A stretch of 64,000 bases of DNA, from NCBI RefSeq assembly GCF_005844425.1, contig NZ_SPHL01000001.1, positions 124,001 to 188,000 on the forward strand. The letters are read 5' to 3'. The position numbers and the translations under genes are program-made. This stretch comes from Anaerofustis stercorihominis. GTDB taxonomy: Bacteria; Bacillota; Clostridia; Eubacteriales; Anaerofustaceae. Of the stretch, positions 62,434 through 62,607 are shown piece after piece; within the stretch, counting starts at the first letter, position 1; each line of letters opens with the position of its first letter. The notes under the pieces were generated by a model. The model saw only the letters and a program-made list of their open reading frames with translations, made no database searches and was not told the DNA's origin.

Positions 62434-62607
62434 AAAGATACGCACAGCAAAGTTGAGATTATGTATAGCTAGTTAAGTAGCACATACTTCATAGGTATGG
62501 TCTGCCCGGTGAAAGCCCGAGTGCGTAAAAAGAACTTGTATCTTGTAAAAGGCACTTACAGCAATGATGGTTTATATATAGAAATAAGCTCAAATTTAAG
62601 TGCCTTG
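62434..62607 (+). ncRNA. Candidate structured RNA upstream of DUF2828 (Y-RNA-like or leader)
   Basis: The 290-bp gap has no open frame and is less AT-rich than other gaps. Pairings seen: AAGATA (62435-62440) with TATCTT (62539-62544); CGCAC (62441-62445) with GTGCG (62521-62525); TATGT+GCTA (62460-62471) with TAGC+ACATA (62478-62486), in competition with CATAC/GTATG (62483-62487/62495-62499); GGT-GAAA-GCC (62508-62517), a GNRA-like tip; and a separate 10-bp helix AAGGCACTTA/TAAGTGCCTT (62549-62558/62597-62606). It could be a free RNA bound by the DUF2828 protein, or a cis-regulatory leader. No known riboswitch class or tRNA T-loop fits. Confidence 0.55.

Follow-up and report, generated by a model that had tools for sequence, protein, structure and literature searches.

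The stretch of Anaerofustis stercorihominis DNA analysed here (the window; 64,000 nt, forward-strand positions 124,001-188,000 of contig NZ_SPHL01000001.1, assembly GCF_005844425.1) carries two tandem RNA units, rather than a single switch, between the second of two WYL-domain genes (ending at 62339) and a DUF2828 gene (starting at 62647). We interpret them, with a probability of about 0.78, as Y-like RNAs of a Ro60-like ribonucleoprotein, bearing modules that mimic tRNA and rRNA. The RNA class to which they belong is large, apparently undescribed and spread over Clostridia and phages; its probable role is in the sensing, sparing or repair of cut RNA. An initial annotation of the sequence had recognized a structured non-coding region between the WYL pair and DUF2828, and this stands; it had not noticed the tandem like units, the conservation of such arrays beside DUF2828 or the likeness of DUF2828 to Ro60.

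RNA 1 (62434-62545; forward strand, like all features of the locus described below) has the layout A-AAGATACG-C-ACAGCAA ... TGTATCTT-G, in which a closing stem and the conserved heptamer ACAGCAA (62444-62450) lead into a complete tRNA-like cloverleaf. The 5' arm of the stem, AAGATACG (62435-62442), pairs with a 3' arm at 62537-62544 that is followed by G; these arms bear out the AAGATA/TATCTT pairing noted in the initial annotation. An acceptor-like helix of 7 bp, two of them G-U, joins TTATGTA (62459-62465) to TGCGTAA (62522-62528) and is mostly seen in the minimum-energy fold. Within it come UA at tRNA positions 8-9, a D-arm assigned by the cloverleaf parse, GCTA-GTTAAG-TAGC (62468-62481), A26, the anticodon arm CATAC-TTCATAG-GTATG (62483-62499; anticodon CAU, U33 present), the variable loop GTCTG and the T-arm CCCGG-TGAAAGC-CCGAG (62505-62521; four of five pairs). 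As read from the sequence, this is a full, unpermuted tRNA cloverleaf of canonical geometry. Its arms have the canonical lengths of tRNA (RF00005), but it departs from tRNA in its short D-loop without GG, its variant T-loop UGAAAGC and an acceptor that continues into the closing stem, leaving neither a free end nor a CCA. ARAGORN reports no tRNA gene in the window, and the CCA end and canonical D- and T-loops of a tRNA are not present. The region had been described as lacking a T-loop; the variant that RNA 1 possesses is of a type common to a whole subclass of its relatives.

RNA 2 (62548-62607) repeats the same plan around a short hairpin, as A-AAGGCACT-T-ACAGCAA ... AAGTGCCTT-G, with its heptamer at 62558-62564; the 10-bp hairpin seen earlier (62549-62558 with 62597-62606) is real. 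Common to both units are the closing stem, ACAGCAA one base past the 5' arm and G after the 3' arm, and the pattern AAGRYRCNNACAGCAA occurs in the whole genome at these two sites only (backward control, 0 sites). The two modules originally distinguished thus exist, but as two distinct RNA units, and a stem and heptamer are present in each. Against dinucleotide shuffles, the folding energy of RNA 2 is clear (z -3.83, 0/200) and that of the entire region modestly better (z -2.05, 7/200), whereas that of RNA 1 is unremarkable (z -1.17, 25/200). Folding energy by itself would have missed the RNA 1 cloverleaf, and the case for RNA 1 is therefore comparative.

A DUF2828 alignment, scanned against 84,980 species genomes, returned 80 loci, and ACAGCAA clusters 80-1,400 nt upstream of DUF2828 in these relatives; L004, a locus of the same gene order, has two similarly built units at the corresponding position. 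A parser that requires a complementary arm, and whose count includes a few nested artefacts, finds 246 elements upstream of DUF2828 in 80/83 loci, almost all from Clostridia, at 1-8 per locus (shuffles, 3.3); it finds none at L027, L038 and L072. G directly follows the element in 242/246 cases. The arm has its own partner at 210/224 sites, versus 68-86 of about 216 when arms are swapped. Because the parser itself uses complementarity, pairing was also tested without it, the 3' end being defined solely as the first CTTG downstream: arm positions 4, 5, 6 and 8 are paired in 151, 158, 145 and 109 of 178 units, compared with 79, 105, 72 and 45 in shuffles. The consensus of this handle is a stem AAGRYRC.../...GYRYCUU(G) plus ACAGCAA. 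Clusters of at least two sites within 500 nt are seen in eleven of 391 genomes of the class, ten of them DUF2828 carriers. The array modules themselves are gained and lost quickly between close relatives.

Two sequence-based alignments, one for each tRNA-like subclass, provide structural counts in agreement with the pairing tests. In the 22 units of UGAAA type, which include RNA 1, covariation is 0.432 versus 0.183 and exceeds all 500 shuffles; the closing stem, anticodon and T helices are 89-95% paired. The individual figures are 94.9% for the closing stem, with changes on both sides in 5/8 of its pairs, and 90% and 89% for the anticodon and T helices, both of which covary. The D-arm is 45% paired in this alignment, where it is out of register, that of the window not lining up column by column with its relatives. 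Among the 27 units with canonical T-loops, every helix covaries (0.454 versus 0.166, again above all 500 shuffles). Of the pairings in the initial annotation, those of the closing stem and the anticodon helix covary, and two others are not borne out among relatives: CGCAC/GTGCG is held in 54.5% of cells among the 22 relatives versus 49.9% in shuffles, and the TATGT/ACATA extension of an alternative hairpin at 62460-62486 in 48.1% versus 43.2% on the same alignment. The suggested switch between mutually exclusive hairpins falls with them, since the competing hairpin at 62483-62499 is the covarying anticodon arm; conserved mutually exclusive pairings of the riboswitch kind are not found, the anticodon arm being favoured over an alternative at 48% versus 43% shuffled. 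Rfam gives no match at gathering level in the region, in agreement with the earlier remark that no known riboswitch class is present, and only two chance matches at E up to 10 over 62340-62660.

The inserts that the handle carries are varied, and many imitate other RNAs. A strict parser recognizes D, anticodon and T arms in cloverleaf arrangement in 54/177 inserts (dinucleotide shuffles: mean 6.2, maximum 11), 39 of the 177 with U33 as well (shuffles 1.35, maximum 4). One class comprises cloverleaves with canonical T-loops, several above the Rfam tRNA cut-off; 11 array elements exceed it in the 13 loci searched, and some inserts match tRNA only over positions 5-66 because the closing stem replaces the acceptor end. 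The second comprises the UGAAA cloverleaves to which RNA 1 belongs, and the third lone anticodon arms. Anticodon-type loops total 61, of which 22 are identical to a host tRNA loop (2.5% expected by chance). Their anticodons include CAT, GAA, TAT, TCT, TTT, GTT and others, with no significant avoidance of repeated anticodons within an array. The CAU arms of host tRNAs are TCGGG-CTCATAA-CCCGG, TCCGG-CTCATAA-CCGGA and CACGG-TTCATAC-CCGTG; an insert at L005 has the second of these, and inserts at L022, L054 and L068 resemble the first. The loop of the RNA 1 arm is like that of the third, but its stem differs from this and from all host CAU arms. A fourth class copies 23S rRNA. Helix H71 (E. coli positions 1945-1965) is reproduced at L068 (21/21 nt), L066 (20/20), L051 (17/17) and also L045, in units at -563, -727, -375 and -699, respectively, from the DUF2828 match start (41.1 bits for the 21-nt copy; best reversed control, 27.6), and both strands of H38 (860-917) are copied at L058 (-489) and L059 (-274). 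An 11-nt copy of the 16S 3' end at L021 was rejected as within chance. The fifth class holds many short hairpins of no recognized likeness, such as RNA 2. Inserts of the form CACTTCGT...ATCAGGA recur at L028, L053, L064 and L069 with no match among the RNAs compared; they are possibly mimics of further RNAs.

The protein encoded next to the array (62647-64000, extending past the end of the window; 496 aa in the genome) matches Pfam DUF2828 and DUF7788 only, rather than the TROVE family, and PF05731 (TROVE) has no match in the genome. It falls in phrog_850, an RNA-binding protein family (E 1.4e-132). Sequence profiles found no PDB relative, and structure prediction was therefore needed. In comparisons of the AlphaFold model (pLDDT 81), Ro60/TROVE chains take ranks 1-10, with a Foldseek E of 5.5e-9 to 9kop and a Z of 15.4 over 405/496 residues covering both domains. 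The model thus predicts the HEAT-like ring and vWA fold of Ro60/TROVE. The likeness to the vertebrate Ro60-Y RNA complex (1yvp) lies in these TROVE-like repeats and the vWA domain, whereas sequence identity is 10% and the RNA motif and modules differ.

The locus has the order WYL pair, RNA array, DUF2828, which is the commonest among relatives. Both regulators (60188-61432 and, overlapping it, 61422-62339) are recognized by the PADLOC WYL model (E 5e-12 and 3.6e-6), with no match to either in Pfam, NCBIfam or PDB; WYL1 and WYL2 homologues lie near the array in 59/80 and 62/80 loci. The RNA ligase RtcB is near it in 55/80, mostly directly downstream. WYL and RtcB are the neighbours that were sought systematically, several contigs being too short to tell. 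The window genome has no RtcB, which an RNA repair (Rtc) operon would include; the gene after DUF2828, identified by eye, is presumably an NAD(P)HX repair enzyme. On a Subdoligranulum plasmid (L103 1300-4467), the order is array, RtcB, DUF2828. A conserved promoter/operator motif, TTCGCAACTTTTTTTCCATGA, occupies 62343-62363. Its consensus TTCGCARCTTTTTTTCCNTGA was matched with up to 2 mismatches, and the motif TTCGCARCTTTTTTTCCRTGA stands 5' of the array in 65/83 loci, versus 0 on the reverse strands. The probable -10 hexamer TAAAAT (62383-62388) comes from a promoter scan at chance level (2 matches in the region, 2.5 expected), at a spacing from the motif similar to that in relatives; it is the sole upstream match, and the promoter does not lie at the start of the long-range pairing, where the initial annotation had placed it. 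In 33/64 loci the first unit begins 52-58 nt past the motif start, just beyond the -10-like hexamer, which would suit transcription starting with the 5' end of the RNA itself; in the window the distance is 92 nt rather than 55-56 nt. The motif TTCGCARCTTTTTTTCC was considered as a mere terminator of WYL2 and rejected, as it also lies 5' of arrays with a divergent WYL pair (L062, L076, L078, L081). It also precedes WYL1 (L005, L006) and RtcB (L058) and therefore marks a shared regulon, which makes TTCGCARCTTTTTTTCCGTGA plausibly a WYL operator.

DUF2828 is also found by tblastn in 681 records of a phage collection, in many of which it is close to an RNA ligase or surrounded by tRNA genes; single-protein pattern queries for DUF2828 and WYL1 in viral_contigs found none. 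Elements with the same handle, with more varied stems, are present in phages of Bacillus, Listeria, Staphylococcus, Enterococcus, Synechococcus, Escherichia and Mycobacterium, and the large phages that bear them often have them among tRNA genes. In IMG/VR, the 5' motif is joined by a complementary 3' arm and G at 63/125 sites (scrambled heptamer, 0/115), and DUF2828 occurs in 23/120 stretches (scrambled-heptamer control, 0/115). An element of mycobacteriophage OhShagHennessy (L104) matches Rfam YrlA with 39.8 bits (E 1.5e-7; below the cut-off of 69), which ties the class to Y RNAs. Several phage units contain a tRNA in permuted order. Circularly permuted tRNAs lie at L101 2083-2205, L101 478-604, L105 5452-5573 and L112 1111-1238; their anticodon stem continues into the closing stem, a layout that seems to imitate a tRNA cleaved in its anticodon loop.

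Bacterial Ro60 proteins and their Y RNAs have been known for years, and their role is not settled. Rfam represents one tRNA-like bacterial type, YrlA; YrlA is not known to form arrays of dissimilar modules, as far as an incomplete coverage of the literature allows. No paper on DUF2828 or its RNAs came up in our search, in which the key Y RNA literature was likewise incompletely covered. The pairing of Ro60 with Y RNA is the known part; what is new, as far as can be told, is the handle, together with the arrays, anticodon arms that are kept intact, the mimicry of rRNA and control by a WYL pair. The units answer to a broad description of bacterial Y RNAs, with a Ro60-fold neighbour, a long stem between the two ends of the RNA and a separate module, and the initial annotation was right to choose YrlA for comparison. 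Like YrlA (RF02553) with Rsr/Ro60, they join a closing stem to a tRNA-like module and are encoded beside a Ro60-fold protein, often with RtcB. The RF02553 model, however, matches the window RNAs neither at gathering nor, over 62340-62660, at E up to 10. YrlA copies the D, T and acceptor arms (PMC8394870), and in its Rfam model the module is permuted and without an anticodon arm, whereas RNA 1 is unpermuted and has one; the stem-proximal ACAGCAA of the window RNAs is also absent from that consensus. The Salmonella rsr-yrlBA-rtcBA operon, which is turned on by tRNA fragments (Hughes et al., PMC7790460), similarly unites a Ro60-like protein, a tRNA-like RNA, RtcB and a dedicated regulator. The present system differs in having DUF2828 for Rsr, the WYL pair for RtcR and many RNA modules and, in the window genome, in the lack of RtcB.

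On this basis, we suggest that the region yields two tandem Y-like RNAs serving the neighbouring Ro60-like DUF2828. The stem and the single-stranded ACAGCAA would form a constant handle bound by the Ro ring, and the insert would be a display module: a tRNA-like cloverleaf with CAU in RNA 1, a short hairpin in RNA 2. RNAs and protein would be produced in response to RNA cutting, under control of the WYL pair. The displayed modules imitate tRNAs and, in relatives, 23S H71 and H38, and nucleases, modifying enzymes or repair partners may act on them or be held by the particle. In most relatives, though not in the window genome, the linked RtcB ligase would complete an RNA-repair operon. It has been suggested that the tRNA-like part of YrlA is a possible inhibitor of anticodon nucleases (Hughes et al., PMC7790460). 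A tentative extension, which we consider possible though not probable, is to see in the arrays a library of baits that evolves, a device that phages would also use to guard their tRNAs from host anticodon nucleases. Each unit would then copy a site attacked by RNA-cutting toxins or by phage or host effectors (particular tRNA anticodon loops, initiator-like arms, 23S H71 and H38), the Ro-like ring would hold the baits to absorb or report the attack, and RtcB would mend the real targets; module turnover would be expected to follow the local repertoire of RNA-targeting toxins.

A rather unlikely alternative is a classical tether of the YrlA type, in which the tRNA-like module recruits one partner, as that of the Deinococcus Rsr-Y RNA-PNPase machine recruits PNPase (PMC8394870, PMC7790460). 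The Ro60-like partner protein, the linkage to RtcB as in rsr-yrlBA-rtcBA and the YrlA match of a phage element with a related handle would all suit it. Most modules, however, are unlike YrlA, many keeping the anticodon arm that it lacks, and one fixed tether has no need of varied anticodons or copies of 23S rRNA; varied intact anticodon arms and ribosomal helix copies fit baits or sensors better, though the modules may instead recruit modifying enzymes or decay nucleases. The array could also be a cis-acting 5' leader whose tandem structures control translation of DUF2828, for instance through autoregulation by DUF2828 binding to its own leader. Its position immediately 5' of the gene speaks for this, as does the fact that no terminator-like site was found between the array and the ribosome-binding site. 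Yet in OhShagHennessy the gene precedes the elements, in phages FADO, SUSP2 and vB_BcoS-136 the elements are scattered among tRNA genes, RtcB intervenes between array and DUF2828 in the Subdoligranulum plasmid, and a leader hardly accounts for as many as 8 unlike modules, which leaves this reading improbable. The repeat/variable-insert layout and the gain and loss of modules recall a recombination or CRISPR-like array, with stem and heptamer as DNA repeats and inserts as captured cassettes, but the repeats are not identical and covary as RNA helices, and many inserts are structured RNA mimics, so that we give this very little credence. That the units are degraded remnants of phage tRNA genes with a functionless leftover fold, as phage copies in tRNA clusters and fast module turnover between close relatives might hint, is scarcely credible given the constant covarying stem and heptamer, the conserved promoter and the compensatory changes that preserve the cloverleaf helices.

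If the units are Y-like RNAs of a Ro60-like particle, they offer the Y RNA field a constant handle with dozens of interchangeable tRNA and rRNA mimics, through which the idea of Y RNAs as competitive inhibitors of anticodon nucleases (PMC7790460) becomes directly testable. Spread over Clostridia, gut and rumen species among them, and over many large phages, the class provides natural variation from which function may be read. DUF2828 is linked to Ro60, a WYL-controlled counterpart of the Rtc operon is indicated, and a new Rfam family could be built on the clean motif of the handle. The range of the handle may extend beyond DUF2828: a search for ACAGCAA beside classical TROVE genes turned up a single possible case, L391 (reverse strand 2676-2840), next to a PF05731 gene and with no YrlA found at that locus. 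In one genome (G342, contig C62:2943 and 3147), in which no DUF2828 was found, two handle sites stand 200 nt apart, as either an orphan array or a split assembly. Elsewhere in the window, Rfam identifies a T-box leader at 23994-24250 on the minus strand (143 bits).
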